From Methanothrix sp. (GTDB taxonomy: Archaea; Halobacteriota; Methanosarcinia; Methanotrichales; Methanotrichaceae), in the NCBI GenBank assembly GCA_026394475.1, contig JAPKYD010000121.1:1-62323 (forward strand): a stretch of DNA of 62,323 nucleotides. Direction: 5' to 3'. The notes below the pieces were generated by a model. The model was not told where the DNA came from. It saw only the letters and a program-made list of their open reading frames with translations, and did no database searches. A program made the position numbers and the translations under genes. Below, one piece after another: positions 37,109-44,420 of the stretch; the stretch's first letter is position 1, and the number at the start of each line of letters is the position of its first letter.

Positions 37109-37603
37109 ATGAAGGCTAGCTTCCAGTCCGATGAGAACCTGCGAAAGACCTTGAAAGAAGTGCTGGGGGAGCTTGGCCTCTCCGCCCGGGAGTTTTCCAA
37201 GGCGTCGGGAATTCCGCAGAGCACCCTCTACAAGATCCTCTCCGGCCACAGGGAGCCGAACATCACCACCTTGCGGCAGATCGCCAAGACCATTCGCCAG
37301 CTGGAGGGCTCGGATGGCAACTTCATCGCCATCATCGCCGCCCGGCCGGTTCTGGACAAGATCAGCGAGAAGAAGATGAAGATCGGGGAGAAGATGCTGA
37401 CATTGCGGGAGTACTCGGCCACCACCATCGAGGAGGCGATCATCGCCGCCATAAGGGCGGAGCGGGACGGGGCAGCGGCCCTGGTCTGTGCTCCCATCGT
37501 CAGCCCCACCGTGGAGAAGATCCTCTCCATTCCCGTGGCGACCATCATCCCCAAGGAGAGCGTCCTGCGGGCGATCGAGGTGGCGGCGAGGAAGATCGAG
37601 TAA
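37109..37603 (+). CDS. XRE-type helix-turn-helix regulator with C-terminal sensor-like domain
   Basis: A 164-residue transcription regulator. Residues about 20-70 form an XRE-type helix-turn-helix (GLSAREFSKASGIPQSTLYK). The C-terminal half is an alpha/beta domain (TIEEAIIAAIRAERDGAAAL; IPVATIIPKESVLRAIEVAA) resembling the sensor part of PrpR-like regulators. ATG 37109 is preferred over 37088 because GGAGAGAG precedes it. It is divergent from the cysteate synthase operon. The repeats and palindrome between them suggest it controls that operon and itself; this is inference. Confidence 0.75.
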   Translation: MKASFQSDENLRKTLKEVLGELGLSAREFSKASGIPQSTLYKILSGHREPNITTLRQIAKTIRQLEGSDGNFIAIIAARPVLDKISEKKMKIGEKMLTLREYSATTIEEAIIAAIRAERDGAAALVCAPIVSPTVEKILSIPVATIIPKESVLRAIEVAARKIE

Positions 37604-37664
37604 GCCCTGGGATTGGCCTGATACGCAGAAGGCTTTTATCATGTTGCATCAATGTGTGGTCAGA

Positions 37665-38255
37665 ATGAGGCCGGCATCGGCAGTGGCTGTATCAGTAATG
37701 GTATGCCTTCTGGCGGCGGGCTGCTATGCAGAGAGCGCGAGCCGCTTCCAGAGTGTGAGCGGAGAGTTCGCCCAAGACTGGATAAGCGACTTCAAGGTCC
37801 AGAATCCCCAGCCTGTCCAGCAGCTTCATAGCGATAACGGCAGCGACTTATGGAACTGGGGCAGTGCCCCCAAAGGGAGCGCGATCGTCGATGGAGAGCT
37901 GACAACAGATCCCTACTATCTTCGGCCCTGGCTGAATCTATCCAGCAACTGGCTGGGTGAATCCTACACAGATCCCAATACCGGACTGCCGGTCGATATC
38001 TATTTAGATCCCCTGACCGGAAATGCGGTCTATTCATACCTCAACCCTAGCACAGGACGTCCTTATTATTCCTATTACTCTTATTTGGACCCTAAAACCG
38101 GGAAGCGAATCTATGCCTACATAAATCCCCTCACTGGAAAGCCGGTCTATTCCGCCGTCTCGCCTTCCAGCACCATGGATACGCTACTAGGTAGCCAGCA
38201 GTCGAATGGCTTGGCGCTGCCGCAGACCTTCACCTCGAATGAGCCCTGGAGTTGA
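37665..38255 (+). CDS. predicted lipoprotein with DPxTG 12-residue repeats (paralogue 1)
   Basis: A 196-residue exported protein. The signal peptide ends in LLAAGC, a lipobox, so the Cys may be lipid-modified. After a linker with WNWGSAPKGS, five imperfect 12-residue repeats follow with the core Y-x-[DN]-P-x-T-G (YTDPNTG, YLDPLTG, YLNPSTG, YLDPKTG, YINPLTG). One unit is extended by YSYYSY. Such repeats fold as stacked beta hairpins. ATG 37665 is chosen because a TATA-like GGCTTTTAT lies 34 bases upstream; ATG 37641 is the alternative. A close paralogue lies directly downstream with the same promoter motif. Confidence 0.75.
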   Translation: MRPASAVAVSVMVCLLAAGCYAESASRFQSVSGEFAQDWISDFKVQNPQPVQQLHSDNGSDLWNWGSAPKGSAIVDGELTTDPYYLRPWLNLSSNWLGESYTDPNTGLPVDIYLDPLTGNAVYSYLNPSTGRPYYSYYSYLDPKTGKRIYAYINPLTGKPVYSAVSPSSTMDTLLGSQQSNGLALPQTFTSNEPWS

Positions 38256-38373: not shown

Positions 38374-38934
38374 ATGAGGACTGCATTGGCAGTAATCGCG
38401 TTAGCAACAGCATGTCTTTTGGCGGCAGGCTGCTATGCTCAAAGCACGAGCCACTTCCAGAGTGTGGGCGGAGAGTATGGCCAGAACTTGATAAGCAGCT
38501 TCAAGGCCCAGAATCCTCAGCCCGCCGAGGAGAGCAGCAAAAGCGGCAACCTGTGGAACTGGGGAAGCGCGCCCAAGGGTAGCATGATTGTTGGCGGAGA
38601 GCTGATAGTCGATCCAACTTACATTTTGCGAAATCTCACCCGTACCAACAATTGGCTGGGAGATACCTACGTGGATCCCTACAGCAGTAATCCGGCCTAC
38701 ACTTACACAGATCCCAACACCGGAGAACAAATCTATGCTTACACGGATCCCAATACCGGGCAACCTTATTATACTTATAAGGATCCTAACACCGGGAAGC
38801 AGGTCTACGTCTACGTAGATCCCACCACCGGGCAGCCAACCTATGCCAGCCTTTCGCCTGTCACTTCGACGAACGCAGTAACGGGTGGCGTTTCGCTGCC
38901 CCCTATCTTCAACTCAAACGATCCCTGGGCCTGA
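38374..38934 (+). CDS. predicted lipoprotein with DPxTG 12-residue repeats (paralogue 2)
   Basis: A 186-residue paralogue of the preceding gene. The lipobox LLAAGC, the GG-EYGQ segment and WNWGSAPKGS are all conserved. Four very regular 12-residue units of the form Y-x-Y-x-D-P-[NT]-T-G follow, the DNA repeating every 36 bases. It ends FNSNDPWA, like FTSNEPWS in paralogue 1. It is probably anchored at the cell surface. A TATA-like AAAGGCTTTTAT at about 38325 mirrors that of paralogue 1. Tandem duplication of the gene is evident. Whether it belongs to the sheath or envelope of the organism is a guess. Confidence 0.75.
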   Translation: MRTALAVIALATACLLAAGCYAQSTSHFQSVGGEYGQNLISSFKAQNPQPAEESSKSGNLWNWGSAPKGSMIVGGELIVDPTYILRNLTRTNNWLGDTYVDPYSSNPAYTYTDPNTGEQIYAYTDPNTGQPYYTYKDPNTGKQVYVYVDPTTGQPTYASLSPVTSTNAVTGGVSLPPIFNSNDPWA

Positions 38935-40163: not shown

Positions 40164-40898
40164 ATGATGGAGGTTGGGATCATCAAAAGTTACGTAATTC
40201 TGACAGGCCTATTGATATTAGTGCTTGCCAATATAAACATCGGACTAGCATATTGGCCGTCTTTTGGAGTTGAGTACGATTCCACGAACGGTTTGGGGGT
40301 CAATCGCGACTCTGCGACGTCTTTTGCCGATAGAATGGTCGCCGATGGTTGGGACAAGAAGTTCTTCTGGGGAGATTCCAACGCCTGGGAGAATGACTTC
40401 AAGGATGTCTCAAAGGGAGGATGGGATAATTCCTATGCCGATAATGTAGACATGCTATTCTGGGAAGGCCACGGCAGTCCTGATGGATTGTACTTCCCTG
40501 CTGGCACTCACAATGATGATACCGCTACATATGATGATGCCATTTGGGGAAACCTGGATCTGGAATGGGTCTTTGCCCACTCTTGCTCAGTTCTGGCAGA
40601 CTCTCATCTATCCGATTGGGCCTATACAGCCTGTGCTAACGGTCTTCATATGTTCTGCAGTCATGCAACGACCGTCTATGCCTGTAATGCCGGAGACAAG
40701 CTGGCTCAGTATCTATTATCCGGAATGAGCATCAAAGATGCCTGGTTCAAGCAGCACCTCGATCTTCAGCCCAGTGGAGTTACAGCCAAGGTAATATGCA
40801 CCCAGTCTACTGCAAACGATCATATCTGGAATCATGGTTCAGTGGGACCCTGGCCAGTGCCTGGAGACACCTGGTGGCAATACTGGATAACCAAATAG
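40164..40898 (+). CDS. exported DUF6345-type protein with caspase-like His/Cys pair
   Basis: A 244-residue secreted protein with an N-terminal signal or anchor (residues 8-29). The domain resembles DUF6345. It has FWEGHGSPDGLYF with His103-Gly104 and VFAHSCSVLAD with Cys141. A His-Gly and a Cys at the end of consecutive hydrophobic strands are the hallmark of clan CD (caspase/gingipain-like) cysteine peptidases, so protease activity is predicted but unproven. Aromatic-rich loops follow. The start ATG 40164 lies about 25 bases after a TATA-like element, so the message is probably leaderless. The next two genes follow in the same direction with short gaps and are also exported. Confidence 0.7.
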   Translation: MMEVGIIKSYVILTGLLILVLANINIGLAYWPSFGVEYDSTNGLGVNRDSATSFADRMVADGWDKKFFWGDSNAWENDFKDVSKGGWDNSYADNVDMLFWEGHGSPDGLYFPAGTHNDDTATYDDAIWGNLDLEWVFAHSCSVLADSHLSDWAYTACANGLHMFCSHATTVYACNAGDKLAQYLLSGMSIKDAWFKQHLDLQPSGVTAKVICTQSTANDHIWNHGSVGPWPVPGDTWWQYWITK

Positions 40899-40910
40899 AG
40901 GGATTGAAAG

Positions 40911-42326
40911 ATGATAAACAAATGCGTCTACTTGATCTTTGGCATAGCGGCTTTGATCGGAGCATATGCCTATTTCACCCAGGCGGAGGACTCTGGATTC
41001 TGTACTGACACAAGCATTTTGACTATGGAACTGCCCAGCAAAGAGGACGGCTATTTAGCCAAGCCAACATTTACCTTAGAGACTAAACTTCCCACGATAC
41101 CAGAAACTGTGGGGATTTACAAGATGGTTAGCCCAGTAGTGACTGCGGAATCTACCAAAGTTCTGGCTGCGATAAGGATAGATAAGGTCTTATTGTCACC
41201 TGTAAGCAAGATCGTGATGACGCCATCATCAGCATTGAAGGTAACACCATCTTCTTCCATATTGAAATCCGATCAGCTAACCAACATTCGAGACCTGGCC
41301 AGCGATTCAAACCGTCTTAAAGTGCAGGCTGATCCCCAGCCAATCTCAACAGATGGAATCGTAGCTAATCGACAGCTTTCTCCAATCGTAAAGGCTTCTG
41401 CGCCCCCCGTGATGCTAAATACGGTGCAAGACATCGGGTCGGCATATACCTTAACCACAGATACCAGCTATCTTGCAGTGGATAAGGTCTCCGGGGCAGA
41501 ATCAGTGTTGTTCGATAAATTGGCTTCTCTAACAGAACGCAAAGCAGCTCTGCCATCAGAGGACATATTGAAACAGAACGCTGATGCCTTTGTATCCCAG
41601 ACAGATCTTCTGCCAGCTGGATATCAGTTCACAGGCATGTCTTACCTCATGAGGCAAATGCTTGGTCAAAACGGTCCTGAAGGAGCGACAGAAAAGGTCA
41701 TGGGTGTGGCAAAGTACTCAAGGACTATTGAGGGCATACCAGTGGAAGGTGCCGGATCTACCATATATGTAATGTTAGGTGATGAGGGCAAAGTCTTGGG
41801 ATATAATAAGGTATCAAGGGACCTAGGAGAAAAAATTGCGGTTTCATCCCAGGCTCTACTCAAGACTCAAGCCGCTGTTACTCAGCCCTCCAGAACAGTA
41901 AATAATCAGCTATCATCATCACCGCTAGCCAAAATTGATGAGAGGTCCGCCGTTTCATTGGTCCAAACCAATCCTTATGAGCTGTTATCTCCAGAGGAGG
42001 CCTTCAATCTGCTTAAGCAAAGAGGTCTAACCACCGAGATCTCCAATGTGGATACAGCAACGGTTACCGACATGCATCTGGCATACTATGAGGCAGAGGG
42101 CAATAAACAACAGACCGATATTGAACCGATCTATGTCTTCTCTGGAGTAGCCAACGGTCCAGGAGGGTCTACAGAGTACAAAGAGATTATGTCTGCGTTG
42201 AAGGTTAAAGCCGGAAGGTCGCCATTCCAGATGGATAGCATCCCGCAAAACCTTGTCAGAGATCTGAAGGCGACCATCTCTGCAGGCATTGGGAACTCAA
42301 ACGCGGAAAGAGCTGCAGTATCGTGA
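40911..42326 (+). CDS. exported protein with propeptide-like (FTP/PepSY-type) region
   Basis: A 471-residue secreted protein starting 12 bases after the DUF6345-type gene. The N-terminal membrane or signal segment (YLIFGIAALIGAYAYF) is followed by a long Ser/Val/Lys-rich low-complexity region. From about residue 245, a propeptide-like region reads KYSRTIEGIPVEGAGSTIYV, then GKVLGYNKVSRDL. This is how thermolysin-type FTP and PepSY propeptides read, and such segments fold or inhibit a partner protease. The likely partner is the preceding gene product. The far C-terminus repeats a similar strand pattern (IEPIYVFSGVANG). Function is inferred from these patterns and position. Confidence 0.6.
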   Translation: MINKCVYLIFGIAALIGAYAYFTQAEDSGFCTDTSILTMELPSKEDGYLAKPTFTLETKLPTIPETVGIYKMVSPVVTAESTKVLAAIRIDKVLLSPVSKIVMTPSSALKVTPSSSILKSDQLTNIRDLASDSNRLKVQADPQPISTDGIVANRQLSPIVKASAPPVMLNTVQDIGSAYTLTTDTSYLAVDKVSGAESVLFDKLASLTERKAALPSEDILKQNADAFVSQTDLLPAGYQFTGMSYLMRQMLGQNGPEGATEKVMGVAKYSRTIEGIPVEGAGSTIYVMLGDEGKVLGYNKVSRDLGEKIAVSSQALLKTQAAVTQPSRTVNNQLSSSPLAKIDERSAVSLVQTNPYELLSPEEAFNLLKQRGLTTEISNVDTATVTDMHLAYYEAEGNKQQTDIEPIYVFSGVANGPGGSTEYKEIMSALKVKAGRSPFQMDSIPQNLVRDLKATISAGIGNSNAERAAVS

Positions 42327-42380
42327 ATAGGTAAGGCCAATAATATGGCCTTACTACCTTTATTAATGGTAAGTGGTGAT

Positions 42381-42863
42381 ATGAAATTAATCTTATTAGC
42401 ATTAATCTCCGGTTTGCTTATCATAACCGCTTCATCCTTATGCACTCCAACCGGAAAATCTCAGCTGGAGATAAACTACACGATCCATTATGAAAACGGA
42501 ACAGTCTTATCCGTCGATCAAAACTCTTCAAAATACTCAGCCCTGAATGACTCGGTTATGAGGTTCCTTGAGTTCATAGCCTATGCCTCTGAAAGATTGG
42601 TGACCGAGGAGGAGCTAATTTCGGAGCTGAAAGGAAAGTGGTATCTGGATGTAACAATCAAAGATGCCATAACTATTCAAACCAAAAAAGACTTGAACCC
42701 CGGATGGCCTCAAGGCTATGAGATCACAACCAAGAAGATAATGATAAAATTAGGGGAAGCCGAGGCTGAAGAGAGGATCTTCACATTCCATGATGAGGGT
42801 ATTCCTATAAGGGCTTGGAGATCGATTATAGGAGTTAACACCATCAGGCTTGAAGTAAGCTGA
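42381..42863 (+). CDS. exported protein of unknown function
   Basis: A 160-residue secreted protein. The real start is ATG 42381 (MKLILLALISGLLIITASSL), inside the track ORF. The mature part is beta-rich and hydrophilic with an early NYTIHYENGTVLSVD. It lies 54 bases after the propeptide-like gene and is probably the third member of the same exported operon. No family is recognised. It might be an inhibitor or substrate of the predicted protease, but there is no direct evidence. Confidence 0.6.
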   Translation: MKLILLALISGLLIITASSLCTPTGKSQLEINYTIHYENGTVLSVDQNSSKYSALNDSVMRFLEFIAYASERLVTEEELISELKGKWYLDVTIKDAITIQTKKDLNPGWPQGYEITTKKIMIKLGEAEAEERIFTFHDEGIPIRAWRSIIGVNTIRLEVS

Positions 42864-43005: not shown

Positions 43006-43062
43006 AATATATATTTTCGGAACGCATATTTCTTTAGCCATCTTTAAAGGTCGATGATGATC

Positions 43063-43662
43063 ATGAGCAAAGATCTCAGCAGCCTCCTCTCCGAACTGAA
43101 GACCGTCCATGAGGACCTCAAGCCCATCCCCACGGAGATAGTGGTAGTGGCAGATTGGGTGAGGTGGAAATGCCGGTTTGGATGCAAAGCCTATGGAAAG
43201 CACCTCTGCTGTCCGCCCTACTCTCCCAAGCCGGAGGAGACAAGGCGCTTGCTCTCGGAGTATCGCTATGCAGCGATCGCTCGATTCGAGGCCAAGCCGG
43301 ACCAGAAGCTTCTGCCCAAGCATCCCCACCATGCCCTCTGGAGCTCCCTCACCAGGCTTCATAAAACCATCTACGAGCTGGAGCGCAAAGCCTTCCTTTT
43401 CGGCTATTACAAGGCCTTTGGCATGGGCGCCCTGCCCTGCACGCTCTGCGAGACCTGCGTCGTAGAAGAGATGTTGAAGAATGATCAGGCCGTCTTCGAG
43501 CTGGACACCGCAAGGTGCAGGCACAAAGATCTCATGCGCCCCTCCCCGGAGGCCTGCGGAATCGATCTCTTCAAGACCCTGCAGAACGCCGGATACAGCC
43601 CCAAGGTTCTGAAAGACTACGCTGCGAAGGTCGATCTCTTCGGCCTGGTGCTACTGGACTGA
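43063..43662 (+). CDS. DUF2284 metal-binding protein
   Basis: A 199-residue protein of the DUF2284 family. Conserved Cys residues are CRFGCKAYGKHLCCPPYSPK near the N-terminus and PCTLCETC in the middle, with a later ARCRH. These bind a metal or an iron-sulfur cluster. The family is frequent in anaerobes and methanogens and its role is not established. There are three Met codons close together (43054, 43057, 43063); the choice is uncertain. TATA-like AAATATATATTTT at 43006-43018 precedes it. It is monocistronic and ends next to an IS3 remnant. Confidence 0.8.
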   Translation: MSKDLSSLLSELKTVHEDLKPIPTEIVVVADWVRWKCRFGCKAYGKHLCCPPYSPKPEETRRLLSEYRYAAIARFEAKPDQKLLPKHPHHALWSSLTRLHKTIYELERKAFLFGYYKAFGMGALPCTLCETCVVEEMLKNDQAVFELDTARCRHKDLMRPSPEACGIDLFKTLQNAGYSPKVLKDYAAKVDLFGLVLLD

Positions 43663-44006: not shown

Positions 44007-44420
44007 TCAAATTCTAAAGCATGCGGCAAGTTTCGTGTTAATTTCATTTCGCAAAGCATCATCAAGAGATCCCAACCAACCAAGAACATCATCACGTGAT
44101 ACTGTGTAGAGTACACCTAATTTTATAATTGATGAATTTTTTAATCCAGTTTTCTCAAATGATGGATTGCTTTTCAGAATTGAGACATCTGCAGGATCGG
44201 GAACAAGCAGCAGTTTTGATGTTATGTATGCCACAACTAATTGCCGTCTTTCGGTATAGATTGCCAAAGCTGGTCGCTCTTTGCTTGTTTCTTTTATCCT
44301 CCCTTCAATATCTATCAACGCCCGCACAAATCGAAAATCAACGAAAATTATATCGCCCTTAGCAATACCTCTCGCGTCCACGGGAGGGCTCCTAACTTTC
44401 CCAATGGTGTCGCCATTCAT
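44007..44420 (-). CDS. PemK/MazF-like toxin
   Basis: A 137-residue protein with the MazF/PemK fold pattern. KGDIIFVDFRFVRA is the first strand pair. ERPALAIYTERRQLVVAYIT is the central RPA-v block, and SSIIKLGVLYTVSRDDVLGWLGSL is the C-terminal strand and helix. MazF relatives are usually ribosome-independent RNases. It is the last of three overlapping genes (ATGA overlap with the gene upstream). In ordinary modules the antitoxin is a small AbrB- or RHH-type protein; here neither upstream gene looks like one. Nearby IS3 and FitA debris mark an accessory spot. Confidence 0.75.
   Translation of the reverse strand: MNGDTIGKVRSPPVDARGIAKGDIIFVDFRFVRALIDIEGRIKETSKERPALAIYTERRQLVVAYITSKLLLVPDPADVSILKSNPSFEKTGLKNSSIIKLGVLYTVSRDDVLGWLGSLDDALRNEINTKLAACFRI

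Follow-up and report, generated by a model that had tools for sequence, protein, structure and literature searches.

Results

The window analyzed here is a 62,323-nucleotide stretch of Methanothrix sp. DNA (contig JAPKYD010000121.1), one contig of a 1.9-megabase draft genome, and it contains a three-gene operon on the forward strand that encodes a DUF6345 (PF19872) protein, a larger partner protein, and a small third protein. The reading frames lie at positions 40164 to 40898 (protein 1; 244 residues), 40911 to 42326 (protein 2; 471 residues), and 42345 to 42863 (protein 3; 172 residues), and the genes for proteins 1 and 2 are separated by 12 bases, as an earlier reading of the sequence alone (the original prediction) had described. 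Each of the three proteins has a hydrophobic signal- or anchor-like stretch at its N terminus and no strong later one, and we infer that all three are exported. The guanine-plus-cytosine content of the operon is 41 to 49%, compared with 52% for the window. A search of NCBIfam gave no name for any of the three proteins, and proteins 2 and 3 had no Pfam match at an E value of 1 or less.

Protein 1 is a member of the Pfam family DUF6345, with an E value of 4.8e-53 and a score of 180.3 bits against a gathering cutoff of 26.9. An AlphaFold2 model of the protein, built with 35 sequences, had a predicted local distance difference test (pLDDT) score of 89.7 and a predicted template modeling (pTM) score of 0.84. 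When this model was searched with Foldseek, the best PDB match was caspase-11 (E value, 2.4e-4; probability, 1.00; TM-score, 0.48), followed by caspase-1, -4, and -7; legumain ranked below these. The model contains six strands, in sequence order at residues 33 to 38, 64 to 70, 97 to 101, 135 to 139, 163 to 167, and 207 to 213. This strand order and the Foldseek matches point to the six-stranded caspase-like sheet of clan CD, so that protein 1 is predicted to have the caspase-like core that had been proposed for it, in a caspase/haemoglobinase-like fold.

A histidine-cysteine dyad had also been predicted, and both elements are present: His103-Gly104 (codons at 40470 to 40475, forward strand) comes right past predicted strand 97 to 101, and Cys141 (codon at 40584 to 40586, forward strand) comes right past predicted strand 135 to 139. 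In the model, the two residues thus sit where strands 3 and 4 end, a placement that is the defining feature of clan CD (PMC4357240). Across the aligned DUF6345 homologues, His103 was conserved in 69/69 and Cys141 in 72/72, with 34 to 53 residues between them. Since both residues are invariant in all homologues aligned there, their presence is not due to chance. Four further columns are invariant or nearly so: Trp135 (69/72), His162 (70/71), Asp219 (70/71), and Gly225 (70/70). The original prediction had named two outcomes that would count against it, the absence of a caspase core and a nonconserved dyad; both were looked for, and neither was seen.

Several observations weigh against this assignment. 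The TM-score of the best Foldseek match is modest (0.48), the E values are only 1e-4 to 1e-2, and flavodoxins are among the weaker matches. In the caspase fold, the conserved helix alpha-3 sits between strands 3 and 4. The model of protein 1 has no helix of at least 4 residues at this place, and it has a helix at residues 146 to 157, between strands 4 and 5. Because this helix pattern departs from that of caspases, protein 1 is likelier to represent a separate family within the caspase-like fold than to belong to caspase family C14. By sequence, protein 1 showed no similarity to the caspases and metacaspases of C14, as it matched no PDB sequence and no peptidase model in Pfam; PDB sequence searches with phmmer and with family profiles returned nothing significant for protein 1 or protein 2.

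Protein 2 (forward strand) belongs by homology to an unnamed, putatively exported family. Its conserved regions cover residues of about 52 to 87, 170 to 316, and 352 to 423; low-complexity insertions at about residues 92 to 171 and 314 to 355, which are not found in the closest orthologues, make it longer than they are. Orthologues with 50% identity adjoin DUF6345 in three genomes of the Methanothrix family. Profiles made without Methanothrix rows, which avoids circularity, were used to place protein 2 in the family. Protein 2 was detected at an E value of 2.1e-39 by a profile built from the split partners of other lineages and at 1.2e-5 by one built only from the N-terminal domains of fused proteins. 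Among 30 partner-family members, 7 matched FTP (best E value, 4.3e-5), 3 matched YycI (best E value, 3.7e-5), and 1 matched PepSY (E value, 0.082). Protein 2 of the window did not reach the Pfam cutoffs for FTP and PepSY, having no match at an E value of 1 or less, and the one FTP bit score listed for a relative was 13.8 against a cutoff of 21.

Structural information came from a fused homologue, a 667-residue protein of a cyanobacterial bin (L073), whose model had a pLDDT score of 76.8 and a pTM score of 0.81; the latter suggests a fixed domain arrangement. Foldseek matched this model to chains of the YycI structure 2o3o (highest probability, 1.00; highest TMt, 0.46), to a PKD domain (4l9d; TM-score, 0.81), and to caspases, and it also returned long, low-confidence immunoglobulin-like matches. 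We read the modeled architecture as YycI-like, PKD, and caspase-like. Through homology to the partner region of this chain, protein 2 would have a YycI-like fold. The description of protein 2 as a propeptide of the PepSY/FTP type is therefore broadly right at the level of the superfamily, where it agrees with the FTP and YycI matches of the relatives and with the 2o3o match, and it fails at the level of a Pfam match in protein 2 itself; the closest known structure is YycI.

The linkage of DUF6345 to this partner was counted in 64 nonredundant DUF6345 domains with a minimum length of 120 residues, a sample biased toward relatives of the query. In 44/64, the partner gene followed immediately downstream in the same orientation, within 60 bases in 38 of those 44, and it was fused to DUF6345 in another 17/64 (13 partner first and 4 DUF6345 first). 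Three domains had no partner; of these, L081 is at a contig end and L060 has, on the other strand, a sequence that resembles the partner. Split pairs were seen in archaea as well as among bacteria (Kordia, Phycisphaerae, Desulfogranum, and Cloacimonadota). Fused forms were found in Deinococcus, Thermaceae, Actinobacteria, Chloroflexi, a cyanobacterial bin, Phycisphaerae, and Zixiibacteriota and, among archaea, in one Heimdallarchaeon and three Methanotrichaceae genomes. The bacterial fused chains consist of a signal or lipobox, a YycI-like domain, a PKD-like linker, and DUF6345, with the order reversed in a few. Fused versions, a search for which had been suggested as a check, were thus found. 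The idea that a methanogen would here have a new arrangement is not supported: the pairing predominates in archaea and bacteria alike, and fusions occur in both orders. Trans-acting PepSY regulators such as YpeB/SleB have already been described (PMC4282423). In the literature searched, which included few subscription papers, no paper was found that names DUF6345 or PF19872 or that treats the family-wide pairing or fusion.

Using 394 genomes of the phylum, we found DUF6345 in 48, the partner in 69, and both in 44, whereas 8.4 genomes with both would be expected (hypergeometric P = 1e-35, with shared ancestry ignored). In 25 of its 69 genomes, the partner was present while no DUF6345 was detected, so that it is not exclusive to DUF6345, a point against a dedicated enzyme-partner pair. 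DUF6345 is nearly always accompanied by the partner, and the converse is not true. Within Methanotrichaceae, DUF6345 is patchy (8/50 genomes), and no copy was found in any of the 25 other species that share the window's genus. The closest operons are on Methanothrix contigs. A gene flanking the operon (43054 to 43662) is common in the genus (21/26 genomes). Both gain of the operon in this species and loss in the others are possible.

Individual loci showed further variation. Three partner regions that lack an intact DUF6345 gene (L120, L126, and L127) contain DUF6345 remnants, which suggests decay of the enzyme with retention of the partner. In a Methanoregulaceae contig (L079), DUF6345/partner pairs, some intact and others broken, are arrayed in tandem. 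A fused DUF6345 protein encoded at L015 has no obvious signal peptide, and a sedolisin/kumamolisin-like protease gene lies nearby.

Proteins 2 and 3 are separated by an intergenic hairpin with a 10-bp stem (42330 to 42355, forward strand), which overlaps the listed start of protein 3 at 42345; the 69-nucleotide stretch that contains it folds at -20.3 kcal/mol (z score, -3.26). Because the listed start sits inside this strong hairpin and the N terminus is cleanly signal-like with a later start, protein 3 more likely begins at the ATG at 42381 (42381 to 42863, forward strand). The hairpin is a possible processing or regulatory site.

Protein 3 is an accessory, found in only part of the DUF6345/partner family. 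At other archaeal loci, its relatives come after the partner, and a fusion to the N terminus of the partner occurs in a Cloacimonadota contig. A PDB sequence search with protein 3 gave nothing significant, and it has no recognizable fold. The idea that protein 3 is a diverged partner was rejected (hhalign, 11.6%). A shorter second copy is present in the same genome (G000:C104:2150-2476; L033), where there is a single DUF6345 gene. At other loci, the gene directly 3' of the pair encodes, instead of protein 3, an ArsR-like winged-helix protein with apparent C-terminal membrane segments (L066:3323-3799, L067:2069-2590, L071:6786-7319, and L074:6697-7227).

Two paralogous genes that are lipoprotein-like and have YxYxDPNTG repeats lie in tandem just 5' of the operon (37488 to 38255 and 38374 to 38934); they have no sequence kinship to it. 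A weak PepSY match in the second of these proteins (E value, 0.0097; under the cutoff) falls in a DPNTG repeat and was taken as chance. On the 3' side is a PemK/MazF-like toxin gene on the reverse strand (44007 to 44420; Pfam E value, 9.4e-8).

Discussion

The operon probably encodes an exported peptidase of a new clan CD-type family together with a PepSY/YycI-like chaperone or inhibitor, which is a separate protein here and part of the same chain in other lineages. Under this reading, the two proteins would form a two-part extracellular enzyme: protein 1 would be exported and fold as a clan CD-like cysteine peptidase with a His103/Cys141 dyad, and protein 2, exported separately, would bind the enzyme outside the membrane and act as a folding chaperone, an inhibitor, or both. 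It would thereby take the role of the pro-domain that other clan CD proteases, and those of the thermolysin type, carry in the same polypeptide. In most clan CD families except caspases, terminal regions block the active site (PMC4357240). PepSY-type domains are described as inhibitors whose binding partner may lie in their own chain or on another protein, and YycI and YpeB are cited as separate-protein regulators (PMC4282423). A trans-acting propeptide role for protein 2 is plausible; proteolysis, binding, inhibition, or chaperoning, as well as any substrate, are predicted from homology, folds, and gene pairing.

Other explanations fit parts of these data. The caspase/haemoglobinase fold is also used by transamidases such as GPI8, and DUF6345, rather than being a general peptidase, might be a transpeptidase, ligase, or amidase whose targets are polymers of the envelope or proteins of the surface; protein 2 would then localize it or present the substrate. 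PepSY proteins do regulate nonprotease enzymes such as SleB (PMC4282423), and near-invariant His162 and Asp219 are unexplained. However, no specific evidence indicates transfer or amidase chemistry, and clan CD enzymes are mostly peptidases; we regard this alternative, the best placed of the four, as unlikely.

Ranking behind it, and also unlikely, is the possibility that the pair is mainly an extracellular sensor that controls a membrane-bound regulator, with proteolysis secondary or serving as a release switch. The winged-helix regulators that follow the pair at L066, L067, L071, and L074 and the occurrence of the partner without DUF6345 would be explained by such a role. The operon of the window and its Methanotrichaceae orthologues, however, are not directly followed by a regulator of this kind, the fused bacterial forms have no regulator domain, and the absolute conservation of the dyad suggests catalysis. 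A combined version is an extracellular proteolytic signaling module of DUF6345, its YycI-like partner, and the accessories, in which the partner restrains the caspase-like enzyme and its release would be passed on to a winged-helix regulator in the membrane, where the lineage has one; it is doubtful and comes next in order. Least probable is a role for protein 2 as the substrate of protein 1 or as its surface anchor rather than as a folding aid or inhibitor. The low-complexity insertions that lengthen protein 2 and the lipobox-like signals and PKD-like linkers of the fused forms, which are typical of surface display, would suit such a role, but the conserved domain is YycI/PepSY-like and not an anchor, and fusion on either side of DUF6345 is no less compatible with a partner that folds or inhibits the enzyme.

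With the reading as a peptidase that has a chaperone or inhibitor partner, a family whose function was unknown gains a concrete prediction: it would be a clan CD-like enzyme that is secreted, has an invariant dyad and a partner of the PepSY/YycI type, and is conserved in both archaea and bacteria. Its value is in the family-wide pairing and fusion and not in an arrangement specific to methanogens, and the split and fused versions offer a natural experiment on how a pro-domain turns into a separate gene. A study of archaeal caspase-like activity, which was measured in cell extracts, remarks on the lack of gene homologues until then (PMC3615174). DUF6345, which is present in Methanosarcina acetivorans, is a testable candidate class for that activity, although it is predicted to be exported whereas the activity came from cell extracts.

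Among known systems, protein 1 resembles clan CD (caspases, C14; legumain, C13; gingipain, C25; clostripain, C11) in its predicted caspase-like fold and in the His and then Cys that come at the ends of strands 3 and 4, and the pro-regions of clan CD often block the active site (PMC4357240). It differs from this clan in having no sequence similarity to any solved chain, in lacking a helix between strands 3 and 4 while having an extra one between strands 4 and 5 in the model, and in a pro-domain-like partner that is PepSY/YycI-like and often encoded by its own gene. As a member of DUF6345, protein 1 belongs to a Pfam entry that states no function, and to this entry our analysis adds the catalytic reading and the near-obligate partner. 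In the YpeB-SleB system, as proposed here, a separate PepSY-type protein controls a partner hydrolase outside the membrane (PMC4282423), but SleB is a cortex-lytic enzyme. Compared with YycI, a regulator of WalK/YycG, and with FTP and PepSY, the likeness is in the match of the fused homologue's partner region to 2o3o and of relatives to the FTP and YycI profiles, whereas the difference is that the domain is here paired or fused with a caspase-like domain and not with a histidine kinase or an M4 metalloprotease.
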